Below, piece after piece: positions 22,383 through 64,000 of a DNA stretch of 64,000 bases. The notes under the pieces were generated by a model. It made no database searches. It saw only the letters and a list, made by a program, of their open reading frames with translations, and was not told the DNA's origin. Within the stretch, counting starts at the first letter, position 1. Each line of letters opens with the position of its first letter. The position numbers and the translations under genes were made by a program. The stretch is from Nymphaea colorata (Eukaryota; Streptophyta; Magnoliopsida; Nymphaeales; Nymphaeaceae), in the NCBI RefSeq assembly GCF_008831285.2, contig NC_045145.1, positions 16,322,040 through 16,386,039 on the forward strand, read 5' to 3'.

Positions 22383-25300
22383 TTATTGGAACATTTTGGC
22401 ATAGGCTCTACGCTCCTGGTCTCGTCTATCAGCAATCTGCAACATATCATGACATTAAGGAATATCATAAAATAATACCTACAATTCCATGTCAAGATTC
22501 ATTCCTACACACCTTCTTCCTTGCAGCAGCGAGTTCCTTCTTAATTCCTCCTACAGAAACAAGAAAAGAAATGAACCCCATGTTGCAGAGTTATGTTGTT
22601 ACATGGACATATTTAATGAAGTTCTACAAGGCCAGGTCAGAGGATGTGGCGTGCCAATTAAGGCGTCTGTGTTACAGAAATAGGCAATAAAATTCCTGAA
22701 TAGTAGAAAGTTCACAAACCATCATTTGGTTCCAACTCTAAAGCCTTCTTAAAGCTTTCAACAGCAGCATCAACATCGTTAAGAGCCATGTAAGCCTGCA
22801 GGATTTTGATCAAAGAAAGATGAACAAATACACATACTCCAAGGCAAAAAAAAATGAAGCTTTTCTTTTTCCAATTCTCCTTTCTTAAAATCATCAAATA
22901 AACCCAATGAGATTCCAACCTAAATGCATATAAGAAAACATGCAGCATTTATTCAAGGAGTTTCCTAATTTGTTGAAAAGATGGTGGGAAAGGACGCCTA
23001 CTTTTCCCACATAACAAAAGAAACCTGAGCTTGAGGAGCTACATTCTAGAACAGGTTCACTCTGCTTCGTTTTGCCCCAATCATGTATTGCAGGCTTACA
23101 GCAGCATGGGCAAGGGATCAAGCTTAGTTCAGGTATCCCAGTATATACCATATTAGACCACATCCAGCAACTGTTAGTGTTAGCTCAAGCTGTCAGTGAC
23201 CCACTGTGGTCATGTACAACTGTTTGGCAACATGCTCGTTCATGTGCACAAGAACATTCCGCAAATGTTTTTTTGTATGTGTTTTTCCAAAATATCACAT
23301 AAAAACAAAGAAATAAGGAAAAACCTGAAAAGGACATGATATTTTCAAAAGTTTTGCCAAAATGAAAAATATCATCTTTTTCTGCACTTTTTTAAAAGGT
23401 ATTTTAAATCTAATTTCGAATTTTCTGGGGGTTTCACTTAACATTTTAATAATGATTTGGAATTTATATCAGTGTTTTGTAACAAAATCATTAGTGGTTG
23501 CATACTTCTCTATTTTTTTTTTTTTTAGAGAAAAGCAAACTTCCTAATTAATACTCGTAAACCGAATAACGATATCTATGACAATGCGTTAAATGCACAG
23601 GGGAGGTAAAGTTTGGTTGCATTTTCACTATATTTCCTTTTGTATAATGTGGAAACTGGAGACAAGATACTTTTCGGGAAAACAAATATAAAACAAGTCA
23701 GCCGCCAAAAGATTAGTTTCCTTCAACTGGAAAGGAAAACAATTTGCAAGCATAAAGAAATATGCATATGTATGTCCACTATATTTCCCTATCCCCTCTT
23801 CAAAACAAAATGAAAACATTTCTAAAATCAAACTTTAAGTAGTAAGAAGATGGAACGTACAAGTAAAGAACCAAACCAACAAAAGATAAATTTTGTCACA
23901 GGAACCATCTATGCACTGTGAGCATGTGACTACCTTGTGACAGTATCTGACATCCTTTGAAAATAGAACATCCAACATCATAACATGTAAACTTACATTA
24001 AACCACTAAACATAGATCTGACATATCCCTGTGACATAGTGTCTCTGCCAGTTCACCATGACCACATTAGTCCTTAGCATGGTAAAATGACATCCAACAA
24101 CTTTCTTTCCTAATGAATCCACAGGTTCATGAATTCTTGTGTAAGGATGAACGCTTTCCAGTTGACAATGCAGAAGCACGCTAGAGAACCTCTGATATAA
24201 AGCTAAACATTTTGCTGACCAGCTAAACCAACAAAATGCTATTGAAGAGAACTTTATGAATGTGATATCCTCAAAAGAAAATAAGCTGCTTTTGCCAGCT
24301 TTCACAAGGCGATAGCAAGAGGAGGGACGCACTAAACATGATGGAGTTCTGCCATCATCAAGGAGACAGATCTGAGGTCTTAGAAGTAGACAAACCTGGC
24401 CCTGGCGGAAAAGAGCTTTCACATTGTCTTCTCCATCACGCATTGCAAAATCAGCATCCAGAAGAGCACCCTTCAGATCACCTAGTTTCAGTTTACATGC
24501 CTAAAAAAAGTAAAGCCAACCAATCAAGTTTCAGAATAAGTTCTCAAGATAAACTGAAAAATAAAGTGAAAGTGTTTCATGAAAATTCTTTTCTGAAGCT
24601 GGAAGGCCTGAGGAACAGGAAGTTAATGAAGCTTAAGCAGTAAAGTATGTTAATGTGATGACCCATCCAAAGATTTGCAATGTGTGTGTGTGTAGGGTGG
24701 TGATGGTTGGGGATTAGGAGCATCTTCCACTTCTCAGTTGGCTATATGAAAGACTTTTCTCTCATCAATATCATGTTAAATTTCTGCAGAACAAACACCA
24801 AAACAACCGTGAAAGGTGCAATGGTTGAGAAGTCTAAAACTCTTAAGTTCATGTCACGTAGAGCTTACTTAGAGTATTTCAAGGGTAATGCCCGTTACAT
24901 ACATTTGACTGCAAAATGGAAGAGGGATGGGTCTTGCCCAAAAAAAAAAAAAAAAAAGGAAAATCCCACATGTACATGCTAGCTGCAGAGTAGGATGCAA
25001 CCAAGAGTCTGTTGGCAGTCCGGAGAACCTACAGAGGAGGAGGGAAAGGGAGATACTAATCTATAAGTGCATAGCCAACTCATGAGCCCCAAAATCTGGC
25101 ATATTCCATACGCATAGTTTTCTGGTTCTGCCACAGTGCCACTGACGGGAGGACAGGATAATTATCTACAAGCACCAAACCAACACAGAGAGCTATTCAC
25201 TATTGTTGCCAAAACTGCAACAGATGCACGCCTTAGATTATATTTCTGCTTCGGCCACTGATGGCATGCAGCTTCAGTTTCTAAAATAGAAACATTAAAA

Positions 25301-43178: not shown

Positions 43179-43229
43179 TCAACAGGTACGCTTCTTACAG
43201 ACAGCCTTGACGACCGAGAAGATCAACAA

Positions 43230-44770
43230 TGCAAGCATAATGTAGAGGTGACGGCAAAACCCTTCTTTCAGCCCTGCATCACCGCAAGCAGAGGGTATTT
43301 CAATGAAGGGGATATCGCCTGGCTTGATGCCACTTTCCTCTTTCATCCTATCAAAAAGGGAAATTGCATCCTGACCAAAACCATTCATGCCATAGCCTAC
43401 AACCATGGCAGTCCAAGATGTACAGTCCTTATGCAGCATCCTCTCAAAGATAGACCATGCATCTTCCACAATACCACACTTAGAATACATTGTAATACTA
43501 GCAATTGCCCTAGCGGTATTTCTCAAGAATGCGCTCTTTACTGCATAAGCATGCAATACCATGTTCTAGTCTTCCAGAGATCCTGAATGTGCAATAGCAC
43601 AACAACAGATGCCATCGTGATAAAATCTGGCCGCAATGTGCAACTTTCGTCTGCATTCATTCTATTGAAAAGTGCTAATGCTTCATCCATAAGTCCATTC
43701 TGACAGTATCTTGCAACCATGGCATCTAATGTCGCTGCATCTCGGTTGGGCACCTCTTCGACCCAGTCTCACCACATTTTGCATTCATGTCAACTAGTTT
43801 TTACAAGGAGGCAATGGACCAACACTCCCAATTTCATATTACCACAATGTTTACACGCTGATAACATCCACCAGTGTTATTGAATCCAGACTCACGTCGA
43901 ATTTTAGCATCCTACTCACAATGGAAACCACATCAGTTCGAAGCCCACTTTTAGCTAATCCAGAAACCATCACCAACCACGAACTGAGTTCTTATCTTCC
44001 AACCTGTTGAAAAAGCGGATCGCTCCCTCAACATCCCTACACTTAAACTACATGTCAGCAAACGAAGTGCTCACTAAAAAATGGGATTCCAATCCCAATT
44101 TAACAACCTAGGCATGAAGGCATTCACCATCTCCAAGCCACCGACATGCAGGGACAAAGCTAATCATGGTGACAGAAGTGCCCACTAGAGAATGGGATTC
44201 CAATCTCAAGTTGACAACATTGGCATGAAGGCGCTCACCATCTCCAAGCCACCGACATGCAGGGACCAAGCTAATCATGGCGACAGCATTAGGATCACCA
44301 TACTTTGGCGTAGCATGCTCCTAAACAAAGCAAACACATCCGCAACCCGCCAATCCGTGCTCGACCAAGAGACGACATCTCTTTGAGGCATTTCGTCGAA
44401 CGCTTGGGGGTCTCATCCATGAAACCGCATTCACCGTACAACCGAAGAGTCGTAGAGGCCACGAATGGATCAAGCTCGCATCCGGCCTTGCCAGAGAAGG
44501 CGTGGAAGGTCCAAGTGGAAGAGCTGAGAGCCGATTGCAGGATCGAAGCGGCGAAGGAAAGGTGGAGGCGGTTCGGGTAGACGCCGGCGGAGAGCATGTC
44601 GTGGAAGAGGGACAAGACGGCGGGTAGGTACTTCCTGCAGAAGGGAGTTCCGTAGCAGCACGATCCGTTGAGGGTCGGCAATGCTCGCTTGCCGCCATTG
44701 ACGAGCAAGTGGCGAAGCGTCCCTGTCAGAAGAAGAAAGGAGCATCACAGAGCCCGCTGCAGGCGTGAGG
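43230..44770 (-). pseudogene. PLS-type pentatricopeptide repeat (PPR) pseudogene
   Basis: Degenerate relative of organelle RNA-editing PPR proteins. In order on the minus strand: an N-terminal part (HDMLSAGVYPNRLHLSFAAS, then FVASTTLRLYGECGFMDE) from about 44708; AFDEMPQRDVVSWSS in another frame near 44400-44350; AVAMISLVPACRWLGDGE near 44287-44235; then AATLDAMVARYCQNGLMDEA near 43745-43690; then SITMYSKCGIVEDAWSIFER near 43500-43440, followed by WTAMVVGYGMNGFGQDA. At least three frame changes separate these blocks, two stretches are eroded, and the E/DYW domains are missing at the 3' end. A segment of about 113 bp is tandemly duplicated at 44060-44287. The parental gene should be elsewhere in the genome. 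Confidence 0.85.
44060..44287. repeat. Diverged tandem duplication (about 113 bp) inside the PPR pseudogene
   Basis: Copy 1 at about 44060-44174 and copy 2 at about 44175-44287 share GGGATTCCAATC, CACCATCTCCAAGCCACCG and GCTAATCATGG words. They differ at roughly one base in nine. Confidence 0.9.
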
Positions 44771-54239: not shown

Positions 54240-55900
54240 TTTTGCATCTCTTGCAAGAACTCTATCCCATTGTCACCTTTCAATAATTTAATTCTAGTTT
54301 AAAATTGATTTTTAATAAATGCGACAAAAAATTTTTTAATCACTTCAAAAGCTTCAGATTTGTATCTCATAATCTAATCCATGTAGATTGAAAAAAATCA
54401 TCAACTATAGTTAAAAAAATAATGTGTATTGATGACTTTCCTTTCCATCACAATGAATCGACTTGAAAAGAGCACATGATGAAATAGTCGAGATGAAGAT
54501 ACCATGGGATGGCGTTGGTAGCGACTAGGCTCACGGCGAGATTGGCTTCAACTAGGACATACAATCTATTCCGTAGTCTATAGTCGTCGATTGATGCATC
54601 GCACAAGAGTTTTCATTAAACTTTCCTCACATGTCAAATGAGTACAAAATTTAGGAATAAAGATCTGATTAAACGCAAAATTTGGAACATGAAGGAGATT
54701 TTTTAGCATTACGTTGGGACGCAAATCCACAACACCCATATGGGTGATGTTCGGTTTGGATTCATTTGGCAAGCCAACTGGAGAGTGGCTGATGGAGACA
54801 AGCATATAAAGGTTGGAGAGAAGACTAGTTAATGGTGTGTTGCATCGGTATCAAGGATCTATGACTAGTTAGAACTGAAAAATGCATGAAATAGGTGAAG
54901 AAAGGTTACCTGGAAAGTTAGCTCTAGGTTCATTGGCACCTCCGTTAGAGTTCTCCATAAACTCAAGGAATTTTTTGAAAAGTTGGACATTGGATTGATT
55001 GGTGGATGCAGTTCCTGAGGGATTAGCCGTCGGCTTCGTCAAGGCATTAGAAGAACCAAACTGTGATAGGGAAACCAATAAAAAAGTAAGACTTAGCTTC
55101 GATGTGCTCAATCTTTCGATAATGCTCACAAGTAAGACTTAGCTTCGATGTGCTCAATCTTTCGATAATGCTTACACTTCACTTGAAGCCTTCCTTCTTC
55201 CTTAGTTTGGTTGTTTTTATCTTAATCTTGAGTTTGCAGTGGAATATGTGCTGCTAGGATAGAGGCTTTCTCTTCAACATGCACCACATTGATGTCCCTT
55301 CATTTCTCTTCTTGAACAATAATATAATAAGCCTTGGCTTCTATAGGAAGCAGATCCATTAAGAGTTGGCTTCTCATGATAGCATGTTGTCATTAAGGCC
55401 CATCAAAAACTACACGAGTTGATCTTGTAAGCGATGATCTTCTATAGCCTTCATTGAACCACATGTGCAATTGAGGACATTAACGTATAACGCTGACTCG
55501 TCCTATAATGCTTTTAGTTTCATGTACTAAACTACAATGTATGACTAATTTTGTTTGCAGTTCATTATCTAAAATTGCATTTGGTAAATAAGTAGGTCAT
55601 TCGATTGAAAGAATCTAGCCTCAAAACAGCTAGAGACTTGGGCATCAATTTTAGCATGGATTATGCTTACTGAGAGGTCCTTGTGGATAGATAAAATCGA
55701 GGACTGGACCAAGTTATTACACCTTTACCATTCAGTTTTGAGGAGAAGACTATCTGGCTTGGCAATGGATCCACCAATAGGTCTCAACTTGTTCTTAATA
55801 GGAAGAGCTATTGTCATGGCCTTTTGGAATGATAGACTGGGCTCATTATGTTGACCACGTCTGCAACATTGATTTCCTTCTGAGCAGCACCTCCTCTTTC
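54240..55900 (-). mobile_element. Ty1/copia retroelement fragment (fossil, broken)
   Basis: On the minus strand the order is a gag-like part (about 55100-55860), a Ser/Asn-rich linker (54869-55130), a protease to pre-integrase part carrying a VVDLRPNVMLKNLLHVPNFA-type segment (near 54590-54760), and an integrase beginning (about 54240-54480). Reverse transcriptase, RNase H and both LTRs are absent. The coding parts are broken in several places. A tandem duplication of about 48 bp lies near 55085-55170. Decay suggests an old insertion. Confidence 0.75.
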
Positions 55901-55940: not shown

Positions 55941-56520
55941 GTTATTGATAGAGAGAGAGTTCTGAAACCAAGTGGATGAATGGGATGTCAGGGGGTTCGC
56001 TTGGCATGAAGGCGGCTAAAGCGCCGTTCCGTTGCTGAAAAAGTGCTGACAACGCTCATCTCCTTTTAATATAACGGACGTTTCGATTGATAGTCTTCAA
56101 GGGGCCGTTTGATGGCCTGGAAATGTGGAATTGGAAATATATTTTTTGGAAAAAATGAATGGAAAAAATCTTTCTGATTCCAATTTTGGTGTGTGTGTGA
56201 TGACTGAGAAATATATTTCCAGAAATATATTTCTATGTTTGATGAAAAAGAATTATATTTCCACATTTTTAAAAAATTAATTCTTAGTTTGATAATAAGG
56301 AAAGAATGTGTCCATTTCCAATTGTGCTTTGCAGTTCGACCATGTTAAATCAGTTTTAGATTAAGTTGATTTACAGTAAATTTACAGTTTGGTCTTTTGA
56401 GCCATGGTCTTAGTATCTAGACTTATTTATGCATCGTCTGAGTGCTCTGCAGAAATCGATCCATCTCCATTTTCAATCTTGTCACTTAAAAAGTATAGCT
56501 GTCATGAATACACTAACTAT

Positions 56521-57210
56521 TCATACTAAAATTTGTCTGGCACAAAAATGAAAAGGGACTTCATCAAGAACATCATTGTGGACATATATATTGCCAGCCC
56601 TTGAGAACATTCTGTTTACAAGCCTTCTCCAGGTTCCCATTCGAGGAACAAATCCATGCCCTATCATCTCTCTTAGAACCAACTCAGCATCATCTAACAA
56701 TCTTTCAGTACAGAGTCCTTGAATCAACAACTTAAATGATCTAAAACTAGGAGCAGAACCTTCTGATATCATTCGGTACAAGTACACTTTTGCATTTTCT
56801 GAATCGAGCCAAACTTGCAGAAATGAAAATGGAATTTATTGCAGCATTTTCGAAAGACCATCCAATGGGCACCCATTTCTGTATCAAAGCCAGATCATTA
56901 TCAACCCAAAGCAGAAATGGCAAAAATAAGAAACACAGAATTGGAGCGATCTCACAGCGGTTAACAACCATGCCACATCTTTCAAACTAGAAAAATGAAA
57001 GACCAAAACAGAGAAATAAAACTAGTACACTGGAATGCATCAATACGACACCAAGACCACTACCATCACTCGAAGGGCCCAGGTTAAATCGTTGAAGTGC
57101 CTAATGAGAGCAGCTTAAGAAGAGTTTCTGCTCTCTCTCTCCCCGTCTGCCTTGAATATTAGAAAAATACTGCTAGGTGCTAGCCGTAATTTGACACAAA
57201 AAGACTCACC
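56521..57210 (-). pseudogene. PPR gene fragment inside the Pack-type element
   Basis: Two exon-like blocks on the minus strand. The downstream block, 56790-56521, encodes SFRSFKLLIQGLCTERLLDD followed by AELVLREMIGHGFVPRMGTW, a clear PPR helix pair, and ends in a stop at 56521. An acceptor-like TTCAG lies just before it. The upstream block, near 57330-57209, encodes ERPDGVAYLQIIKESHPPTE and is followed by a GTGAGT donor. Near 57385-57370 an AFDEMP-like word appears in another frame. Too little is left for function; it is a captured fragment or chimeric transcript. Confidence 0.6.
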
Positions 57211-57425
57211 GAGACAATTTCAGTTGGTGGGTGGCTCTCTTTTATTATCTGCAGGTAAGCAACCCCATCAGGTCGTTCTGCGCCCCTTTCGACGGAATTT
57301 AGACAAACTGTAAGAAAAAGACGAGCTATATCAGGGTTCACTAGCACACAAAGACTGAAAAGAGTGGGTGAGGCATTTCGTCGAACGTTTGGTCTCCAGA
57401 AGTTCAGCATCCATCAACCCTCCCA

Positions 57426-57556
57426 GACGTCCGAGGGAGAGAAGAGGAAAGCAGAGGAAGAGAGAGAACAAAGGTAAGGAAGGACGCGGGTTAGGGTTTT
57501 ACCTCTATTGCCATCGGCGGAGACGTCCGAGGGAGAGAAGAGGAAAGCAGAGGAAG
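57426..57556. repeat. Direct repeat in the GC-rich part of the Pack element
   Basis: GACGTCCGAGGGAGAGAAGA followed by GGAAAGCAGAGGAAG occurs near 57425-57459 and again near 57523-57557, about 98 bp apart. Confidence 0.85.
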
Positions 57557-57868
57557 GGGGAGACGAAGAGAAACCCTCTCCCGCTACTCCAGAATCCTGC
57601 CGTCCCTTCTTTCTTCCTCTCGCAACAAGACTGAGAGAGCGTGAGAGAAAGAGAGAGTGAGAGATAAGAGCCGAAGAGGGCTCACCGGTGGGCGGCTGGA
57701 GGATGACGGCCGTCCAGCGGAGGAGGGACGGTCTCTGTGATGGGGAGGGACAGGGAATGAGGGAAGGAAGAAAACGCAGCAGCAGCAGCAGGCGATGCAC
57801 GAAAACGAAACCTTGGGAGGAAGACGCGAGCGACGAGCGTGCAACGGTTAAAAAAAAAATTCCAGAAA

Positions 57869-57897
57869 AATGTTTCCACCCCTCGCGGTGGAAACAA
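57869..57897. repeat. Small hairpin near the right TIR
   Basis: TTTCCACC and GGTGGAAA arms flank a short CCTCGC loop inside the right subterminal region of the Pack-type element. Confidence 0.8.
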
Positions 57898-57960
57898 GTT
57901 TCCGAAAATATATTTCCGGCATTGCTATAGGGATTTCCGGCCCGTCAAACGCCCCCCAAA

Positions 57961-58062
57961 AGAGAGAGAGAGGAGAGAGAGTTCTCATTGATAGTCTTCA
58001 ACGGATGACAAAGAGAGAGAGAGTTCTCATTGATAGTCTTCAACGGATGACAAAGAATCCAT
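57961..58062. repeat. 42-bp tandem repeat with GA runs beside the transposon
   Basis: The unit GTTCTCATTGATAGTCTTCA followed by ACGGATGACAAAG and GA words occurs at 57981 and 58023. The left flank of the transposon (56086-56100) ends in the same ATTGATAGTCTTCAA, so the element split an array of this unit. Confidence 0.9.
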
Positions 58063-58401: not shown

Positions 58402-59830
58402 CTACTGTGGGAGCTTATTGATCTTCCGATACTGGAATTCTTTGTAAGATTTGGTGGTGAAGAGCGGAGGATTGTTTTCATTGATGAGCTGAGGGAGAGG
58501 CCCTATGATTGTTTCCAGAGGCGGTACGCAGAAGACAGCCCATGACATCCGCACGTCGTCCTTGCTCACCAAGCTCCTGTGCAGCACGCTTTTGTATTTC
58601 CCATTGCTCAGCACCTTCAAAGAAACATCACAGGACAAAAGTGCATGATATGTACTTTGAACGCCGTGAGTCTTACGATGGTTGTAATGTTATAACAGGA
58701 CAAAATTGCACGATAGGGAGAAGCTTAAGTTAGTGACAAATTTTGCTAAAAAGAAAATGCTCCATCCCGAGGAATGGAAGAACTTTTCCTTCCAGAAGTG
58801 GCTCTGCCTGACAAATTCTGGCAGAAATTTCCTTCGTTAGAGATGAAGCCAAATTCTTTTAAAGATTACACTCCTAATTTCGAACTTTACCCTGCAACAA
58901 AAAGCTGAAACTGCAGAAAGATATAAAAGAGAAGAGAAGATCCGTGGGCCATGAGAAGAGATGGAAGGGCAACCTCAATCTGATCGCCGACGTGGATAAC
59001 AAGAGAGCCTGGCAATAAGTCTACAGCAACCCAGTTGCCGTCCTTCCACACCTGAAGGCCGCTCCGGCGGTCGGCGACCAGGATGGTGATTGCAGACATG
59101 TCTGTGTGCGCCTCCACTCCTAGCGCCAGTTCTGGCTGTGGGCATCTCGGGTACAAGTTGATCTTCATCTCCATTACGAGCTTATCACCTCCCACTGCTT
59201 CCTTCATCGCTCCTTCTTCCAATCCAAGCCCATTTGACAAAGCAACCAGAATCAGGTCTGACACCCTCGTTAGTTCCTTTCCGTATTCTTCTGTAACTTC
59301 CCTACAAAAGGCCCCCAGTTGACAAGAGATCACAAGCTAATTCGGAACGACAAAAGCTGGAATGTTTTGGTATACCTGTACGAAGGTGGATCCCGAGGCC
59401 ACTTGGTGTAGTCAACATTTGAAGGAGGAGAGAGCATGTGGAAGTAGTAATCTATCCACTCCAACTTCATCGCCTGGTTCTTGACCATCTTGGTCCCGTA
59501 GCCTTCCAAATTCCCATTAGCAGCGTCGTTGGCATACTTCTCCTTCTCCTCCACCGGGAGCTCAAAAAATTGCCTCCCCACATCTTGCAGAGCCTTGATG
59601 GATTCAGGAGGTATGTTGTGGTCGGTTAGAATGAAGATGCCCCACTCTTGACACGCCCTCGCGATCTCCTCCCCTACCTTTTGAAAGGGATGGTTCAGCG
59701 AGATCACAGGCACGTCCTTCCCTTCAATGGCCTTGCTGTTTTCCGGCCGCTCGTGAGCTTCCCTCACGAACTGCTCCGGCAGCCTATCTACGCCCATGGA
59801 GGCAAGGTTCTGCACCCTATCTGCACCCAT
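58402..59830 (-). CDS. Flavonol-synthase-like 2-oxoglutarate/Fe(II) dioxygenase (3 exons, 331 aa)
   Basis: DOXC-class 2-oxoglutarate-dependent dioxygenase, closest in my reading to plant flavonol synthases, which desaturate dihydroflavonols in the cytosol. Exons: 59830-59376, 59301-58974 and 58614-58402. Introns are GT-AG and in frame, giving 331 residues (Arabidopsis FLS1 is 336). The iron ligands are His217, Asp219 (AHTDMS) and His273 (VLHRS). The 2-oxoglutarate-binding RxS is Arg283-Ser285. The N-terminal non-heme domain (EWGIFILTDHNIP, FFELPVEEKEKY) and the ending NKLPQ are family-like. Compared from memory with the FLS1 substrate contacts H132, F134, K202, F293 and E295, this protein has Tyr128, Phe130, Lys198, Phe289 and Val291. 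Two contacts are changed, so it may use another substrate. It looks intact. Confidence 0.92.
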
Positions 59831-59905
59831 GTCTACCCTTTCGCTCCCCGAAAAGTATTGTAGATTTGGTAGAGATTGTGCTTGGTTCCGTCCTGTGCGT
59901 GGTTG

Positions 59906-59913
59906 ATATATAG
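59906..59913 (-). promoter_or_regulatory. Candidate TATA box of the dioxygenase gene
   Basis: The minus strand reads GGCCTATATATCAACC, about 80 bp before the ATG at 59830. Spacing suits a short leader. Confidence 0.5.
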
Positions 59914-63127
<3,214 letters not shown>

Positions 63128-63582
63128 TTGAACCGATCTAAAATATTAAAAAAAAAAAGTTAAAAAGTTAAAACCATAGTCACATGCTAAAAAGGGGAAA
63201 ACTACATATGATGGATTGATGGATGGAGACAACGGCGACGCTGAAAAGAGTAAAACTACAAATGAACAGTCATATGTTAGATGGAGTTGATCTAATAAAC
63301 GTCTGCCGGCGACAGTCAAAGCAGGGGAAACTACATACGATGCTCAAGACAGTCAAATGAAAAAATGAAACAAAATATTACTCTACATGCGACGCTAAAA
63401 GCCGGGCATATATAGAATACGAGAGGAAAAAACAAAAAAAATGTAAAAGCCCTAAAAACAGACAAATCAAAAAATAAAACAAGATAAAAGCTGCCGCCGT
63501 CAGCCGCCGAATCTTTTGCCGGGAGCCGTCTCGGTTAAGTTTTAACTTTTTTAAGTTTTTTTTATACTTTAGATCGGTTCAA
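63128..63582. mobile_element. TIR element with about 50-bp inverted ends
   Basis: The left arm TTGAACCGATCTAAAATATT followed by A-rich AAAGTTAAAACC (63128-63176) matches the reverse complement of the right arm (63533-63582; TTGAACCGATCTAAAGTATA on the opposite strand). The interior repeats GGGGAAACTACATA-type words near 63197 and 63326. It has no coding capacity and no target duplication that I could find. Family unknown. Confidence 0.55.
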
Positions 63583-64000
63583 AGTACTCAACCGTACCCA
63601 TCGGTTCGTGGGTCTCCGCCACGTACCACTGTGACATCGCGTAGAAATAAGAAACACCTCAAACGACAAAAGTACAAGAACAGGGAAACAAGCTTTACGT
63701 GACCGCAGGTCCTTGTCGGTTCAAGCTTCACGTACCAAACCAAAAGATTAGTAGTACATGAACAGTGGCACAAGAAAGTATAATTCATGAAGACCGCACG
63801 AATAAGATGCATCTTATGTTCTTGAGTCCGTTTACCAACGTGATACAGCAAGCTAATTAAGTAACTACTCTACATTTGCAAAGGATAGTGTGATTAATGA
63901 GCCTAACACGCACTTGAATTTAAAATGTGAAAAGCTTTACAGTATAAGCAAGAAGAAAATATCAATAAACTAGTAATTGTCTATAACAATATATATATAT
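63583..64000. other. Gene-free right end of the window
   Basis: No gene seen. The window ends in the beginning of a TA run. Confidence 0.5.

Follow-up and report, generated by a model that had tools for sequence, protein, structure and literature searches.

Genes and features of the locus

The window analysed here, a 64,000-nucleotide stretch of Nymphaea colorata DNA, has plant-nuclear-like content, with MYB, cyclophilin, DUF617, patatin, SRF-type, and 2-oxoglutarate dioxygenase domains; Rfam, searched at its gathering threshold, returned no match in the window. The 2-oxoglutarate dioxygenase gene occupies 58405-59932 on the minus strand (DIOX_N, E = 9.3e-24; 2OG-FeII_Oxy, E = 4.6e-17), and a further ORF with 2OG-FeII_Oxy similarity probably lies at 58405-58689. 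Beyond the 3′ end of this gene, at 56101-57956, is a segment of 1856 bp whose limits are marked by inverted tips, a short direct repeat, clusters of a pentamer motif, and the spacing of a tandem array. We refer to this segment as the element.

Other repeated or decayed sequences lie in the same window. A decayed PLS-class PPR gene is found on the minus strand at 43180-44750, with Pfam PPR matches at 43182-43565 (E = 1.8e-12) and 43541-43768 (E = 3.2e-6) and more PPR-like pieces that lie in several stop-containing frames. Within this relic, at 44070-44290, a sequence of ∼110 bp (tgggattccaatc ... ccaccgacatgcaggga) is seen by eye to occur twice in tandem. To the left of the element, 54581-54850 on the minus strand gives a weak Pol_BBD match (E = 0.0069, below the cut-off) and, judging from that similarity, may be a remnant of a copia-type retrotransposon.

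Terminal inverted repeats and subterminal motifs

The left terminal inverted repeat (TIR) of the element (56101-56124, plus strand; tip GGGGCCGTTTGATGG) and the right one (57933-57956, minus strand; tip GGGGGCGTTTGACGG) read inward as GGGGCCGTTTGATGGCCTGGAAAT and GGGGGCGTTTGACGGGCCGGAAAT, and they are identical at 13 of 15 and 20 of 24 positions. Gapped similarity continues to ∼58 bp by way of a GGAAATATATTTT block that is common to both ends; beyond ∼60 bp the two ends diverge. These values uphold the sequence-only reading that preceded this analysis, which had set the tips at 56101 and 57956, with 13 of 15 bases identical and similarity over about 60 bp.

Inverted matches of this quality also arise elsewhere. 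Of 40 shuffled windows, 7 contained a gapped match that attained the score of the TIRs, 20, and simple repeats account for many of the 21 alignments that do so in the real window. After a low-complexity filter, five ungapped inverted pairs of 25-mers with at least 20 matches were present in the window, the element's pair among them. Because shuffled windows and the real window give equal inverted matches, the TIR alone cannot carry the claim of an element, and as evidence by itself it is borderline. Three pairs in the window combine the PIF form with 13/15 tips, and at least one such pair occurred in 100 of 200 shuffles. When identical 3-bp flanks are added to these two properties, the element is the window's only case, and 4 of 200 shuffles produced one or more.

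Searched at up to 2 mismatches in 15, the window contains no other tips. Two matches with 3 mismatches in 15 were found, against a chance mean of 1.9 for up to 3 mismatches. Inside the element, with as many as 3 mismatches allowed, the tip pattern matched nothing besides the two outer ends. A match of 18 in 25 to the left tip at position 278 (minus strand) was examined and showed nothing further. The exact degenerate tip 24-mer had no match in IMG/VR and GTDB genomes, as plant DNA would predict, and in the literature searched the tip strings turned up just in papers whose titles concern other topics.

The regions just inside the tips are marked by a pentamer, GGAAA/TTTCC. The left subterminal region (56101-56340) carries eight of these pentamers together with GGAAATATATTTCC-like copies, and it is the densest 240-bp stretch of the window in this respect (next best, seven). 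The right subterminal region (57840-57956) carries five and is joint second among the 117-bp stretches of the window (best, six, at 23633), and the 1.5 kb between the two regions contains two. We slid an 1856-bp frame across 62,144 starts and counted the pentamers in its ends. Both end counts were matched by 41 frames, and the 39 of these that were listed all lie at 56079-56117. The two ends of the element together hold 13 pentamers; frames more than 300 bp away reach at most 8. Since the motif was picked post hoc, its clustering is supportive and does not amount to a blind test. Subterminal repeats of this type bind transposase, and the GGAAATATATTTCC-like repeats may be such transposase-binding sites.

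Target site and tandem array

Identical CAA trinucleotides, at 56098-56100 on the left and 57957-57959 on the right (both plus strand), flank the element as a target-site duplication (TSD). On the left, a part-unit of the target site, ATTGATAGTCTTCAA (56086-56100, plus strand), abuts the end of the element, and its last three bases are the TSD. On the right, the remainder of a 42-bp tandem target array occupies 57960-58056 (plus strand), with perfect units at 57973-58014 and 58015-58056. Exact plus-strand copies of ATTGATAGTCTTCAA occur in the window only at 56086, 57987, and 58029, the latter two within the perfect two-unit repeat (57973-58056); the minus strand of the window has none. The distance from 56086 to 57987 is 1901, which equals 1856 + 3 + 42, so that removing the element together with one CAA restores the 42-bp spacing. 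Thus, both boundaries and the size of the 3-bp duplication are supported independently of the TIRs. The target array, with its spacing restored on removal, is the strongest evidence for insertion.

When the flanks are joined, they align with ∼2.4 units of the array, mostly as the right-hand array with itself; what is informative in this alignment is the 15-mer on the left, together with the spacing. At the junction and to its right, the sequence of the restored unit deviates from that of the perfect units; because of this difference, its equal length could partly be due to chance, given that the stretch is GA-rich. A similarity between flanks that equals or exceeds the observed one (score 16) was reached by 12 of 4970 random window pairs and by 30 of 4723 other left flanks compared with the real right flank. 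We also considered a 15-bp target duplication, with ATTGATAGTCTTCAA on both sides, and rejected it. The right copy starts 30 bp past the right tip, at 57987, and it is part of the 42-bp array, so that it is better accounted for if the element inserted into this array and duplicated 3 bp.

Superfamily assignment

As the sequence-only reading had stated, the interior appears free of transposase: all 13 element ORFs of at least 75 aa lacked a match to a transposase family. Across the window there are 174 ORFs of this size, of which 11 low-complexity ones were excluded; among the remaining 163, a scan of 145 found no transposase family. The element shows two properties of a Pack-TYPE element, a transposase-free interior and host gene sequence, here a PPR block, between its ends.

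Both ends carry G(N)5GTT, a motif required of PIF/Harbinger ends in a study of Medicago (PMC2213677), and the TIRs, at 13/15 and 20/24, lie within the limits given for this superfamily (∼14-25 bp, with at most 4 mismatches in 14; PMC2213677). The CAA/CAA direct repeat has the 3-bp length expected of PIF/Harbinger insertions, a length that the array spacing also demands. The tip motif and this repeat together bear out the earlier description of the tip as PIF/Harbinger-like. In its sequence, the repeat deviates from TTA/TAA, which is typical of the superfamily but not universal: TTA or TAA is reported for 52.4% of PIF elements in rice and 81.2% in maize (PMC8903248), percentages that leave 47.6% and 18.8%, respectively, departing from it.

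This deviation speaks for a TIR element of another superfamily, a MULE, hAT, or other type, with the same cargo. Pack-MULEs are the best-known carriers of gene sequence, and they capture G+C-rich leaders such as the one that the interior may contain. However, the TSD is 8 bp in hAT elements (PMC2528002, PMC8903248) and 9 bp in Mutator-like Pack-MULEs, as in grapevine MULEs (PMC2528002), whereas the flanks repeat just 3 bp at the tips and the array spacing demands 3 bp. Moreover, the tips match the PIF rule and do not start CACTA, as those of CACTA elements do, but GGGG. Membership of another superfamily is thus unlikely.

Gene-like sequence between the ends

The clearest cargo is an ORF on the minus strand at 56521-56835 with a PPR block, in which the Pfam families PPR_1 (E = 3.1e-6) and PPR (E = 1.5e-5) score above the cut-off and PPR_2 below it. 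This ORF covers one full P-class motif and parts of the preceding and following motifs, and it then ends at a stop codon. Of the tandem 35-residue motifs that characterize the P class, one exceeds the Pfam cut-off, and the parts of its neighbours appear in PDB alignments only. A PDB search at E up to 1 returned 35 distinct sequences, designed PPR proteins best and chloroplast PPR10 included, with the stronger hits extending at their widest over residues 13-93 (56557-56799). One full motif, partial neighbours, and a stop codon suggest that the piece represents the C terminus of a P-class PPR protein.

The reading frame of the PPR ORF is closed upstream by a stop, and the block is closed on both sides inside the element. 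A PPR gene running past either end of the element, one of the outcomes that the sequence-only reading had named as speaking against it, was sought in the window and not found. Outside the element, the window contains no PPR match at E < 0.1 save the relic at 43.2-44.4 kb, no DNA match to the PPR block, and no near-identical parent gene; IMG/VR contained no relative of the PPR exon. The relic and the cargo of the element differ in PPR class and show no DNA match to each other. The same reading had spoken of PPR blocks in the plural. One block, that at 56521-56835 on the minus strand, is certain, and the plural is unsupported. As a second block we considered 57369-57392, which reads QTFDEMP in one minus frame, and rejected it: tblastn with a PLS consensus matched only 7 residues, at E = 6. 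This segment and 44384-44407 are identical at 23 of 24 bases (E = 2.3e-4) and both read FDEMP, a 24-nt match too short for homology to be distinguished from a shared motif.

Read on the minus strand, the cargo has the order of a G+C-rich leader-like segment, splice-like signals, and the PPR block. The first of these, at 57502-57839 (minus strand), resembles a leader or first exon; its G+C content is 59%, compared with 40% in the window, and it ends at a donor-like GAG/GTAAAA. A 43-bp direct repeat (57425-57563; copies at 57425-57467 and 57521-57563, 95% identical) flanks this donor-like site at 57502. The GC-rich repeat segment described earlier is thereby confirmed. Splice sites were scored with generally known splice-site frequencies, and the score of the donor at 57502 is matched by 40 of the 6604 GTs in the window. 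The GTGAGT previously pointed out as donor-like is indeed present, at 57209 on the minus strand, but it is unremarkable, with a score matched by 621 of these 6604, and the better donor is that at 57502. Splice scores also delimit a putative exon on the minus strand at 57210-57307, from an acceptor-like TTTTTCTTACAG to a donor-like TCG/GTGAGT. It had no match in PDB up to E = 10. A Pfam match of the enclosing ORF to AbbA_antirepres was dismissed as being at chance level (E = 0.28).

Phase 1 is required at the AG sites ahead of the PPR block, with which an exon would start at 56813 (a site outside the list of the 16 best acceptors) or at 56798. In that phase 57210-57307 contains a stop, and starts farther upstream hit an in-frame stop. 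On this reading of the frames, no coding sequence spans both 57210-57307 and the PPR block. The PPR piece is out of frame with the upstream exon-like segment, which argues that it is a gene fragment, and the interior of the element would consist of pieces of one or two host genes, with no working gene among them.

The reading frames also bear on whether the locus is a true small host gene on the minus strand, with a G+C-rich first exon, introns, and a PPR last exon, whose inverted tips are coincidental. Such a gene would account for the gene-like order on a single strand, for the good donor-like signal at 57502, and for the acceptor-like one at 57307; an inverted repeat by itself is not rare. 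The reading of the frames, the 3-bp duplication, the 42-bp spacing on removal, and the motif clusters at both ends weigh against it. We consider a small host gene quite improbable.

Discussion

The tips, the 3-bp repeat, the target spacing, and the enclosed PPR piece make it well supported that 56101-57956 is a non-autonomous PIF/Harbinger-like TIR element with host-gene-like sequence. More specifically, this segment is likely a Pack-TYPE DNA transposon of that superfamily, non-autonomous, which inserted into the 42-bp array and duplicated CAA. Insertion would have proceeded by cut and paste, with transposase supplied in trans. Its target would have been one unit of the 42-bp tandem repeat, with duplication of CAA, downstream of the 2-oxoglutarate dioxygenase gene, at a distance of ∼450 bp if the ORF at 58405-58689 is the last exon.

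The cargo was presumably captured from a parent gene. The PPR piece would correspond to the 3′ terminus of a gene for a P-class PPR protein, and this piece, the G+C-rich leader-like segment, and the splice-like signals would have been copied from one or two host genes. A possible route of capture is the joint mobilisation of two neighbouring insertions, which has been proposed for the formation of Pack-TYPE elements (PMC8903248). Since an in-frame link from the upstream exon-like segment is lacking, a PPR protein is probably not made now. By comparison, the cargo could be imagined as an expressed chimeric gene, in which the P-class PPR tail of one host gene is driven by a promoter and spliced leader captured from a second. 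It would yield a short PPR peptide, or small RNAs acting on the parental PPR gene, and would have spread as a PIF family; we think this very improbable.

Least probable of all is a composite of two adjacent MITE-like insertions of the same family that bracket a resident gene remnant which never moved: the ends do differ beyond ∼60 bp, and Pack-TYPE elements are proposed to start from such bracketing (PMC8903248), but no internal tip is found at up to 3 mismatches, and the whole 1.86 kb splits the target array, which a resident interior leaves unexplained.

It is useful to compare the Pack-TYPE transposon proposed here with systems already described. Pack-TYPE elements of the PIF/Harbinger type are known from rice and maize (Gisby and Catoni 2022, PMC8903248). 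Like the element, these Pack-PIFs have PIF-type TIRs, a 3-bp TSD, no transposase, and host gene sequence inside. Their TSD is usually TTA/TAA, whereas that of the element is CAA; the pipeline that found them discards singletons, whereas the element is a single copy within the window; and the words "pentatricopeptide" and "PPR" are absent from the main text of that paper, whereas the element has PPR cargo. Capture of PPR sequence is documented in grapevine, where two copies of Cactavine-5 contain part of a PPR coding sequence with its 3′ UTR (PMC2528002). Cactavine-5 and the element are thus alike as DNA transposons that hold part of a PPR coding sequence, probably a 3′ part in both. However, Cactavine-5 belongs to the CACTA superfamily and has a transposase ORF, and the element is PIF-like and has none.

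Within the PIF superfamily, Pifvine-3 of grapevine also holds captured genic sequence, in the form of transduplicated exons and introns (PMC2528002). This family was characterized from elements that encode transposase, its captured DNA lies in a long 5′ region, and the passages that describe it mention no PPR cargo. The tip of MtPH-A6 from Medicago, GGGTCCGTTTGGTTC, resembles the element's GGGGCCGTTTGATGG, with G(N)5GTT in both (PMC2213677), and 46 of 54 MtPH-A6 elements are without coding capacity (PMC2213677). For its superfamily the TSD is given as TTA/TAA, and the passages on MtPH-A6 mention no PPR cargo (PMC2213677); the element, in contrast, has CAA and PPR. The open-access literature searched yielded no PIF element carrying PPR cargo, a result that cannot prove absence. 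The element joins two known things, Pack-type PIF elements and the capture of PPR sequence by a CACTA element.

The capture and shuffling of host exons is documented for MULE and CACTA elements and for the Pack elements of rice and maize, and the present locus adds a well-delimited PIF-like case with PPR cargo. Unusually, the locus also bears its own mark of insertion, in the form of a split tandem array whose spacing can be restored. Should there be sister copies that carry different cargo, the family could be used to study the uptake of DNA by PIF elements.

Two more inverted pairs were observed in the window. One, at 1477-2296, is of PIF form, with tips matching at 12 of 15 positions and CAT/CAT flanks. 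The other, at 63126-63584, is 22/25 identical, measures ∼460 bp from end to end, and aligns with gaps over 48 columns at 85%; it is possibly a MITE of another family.
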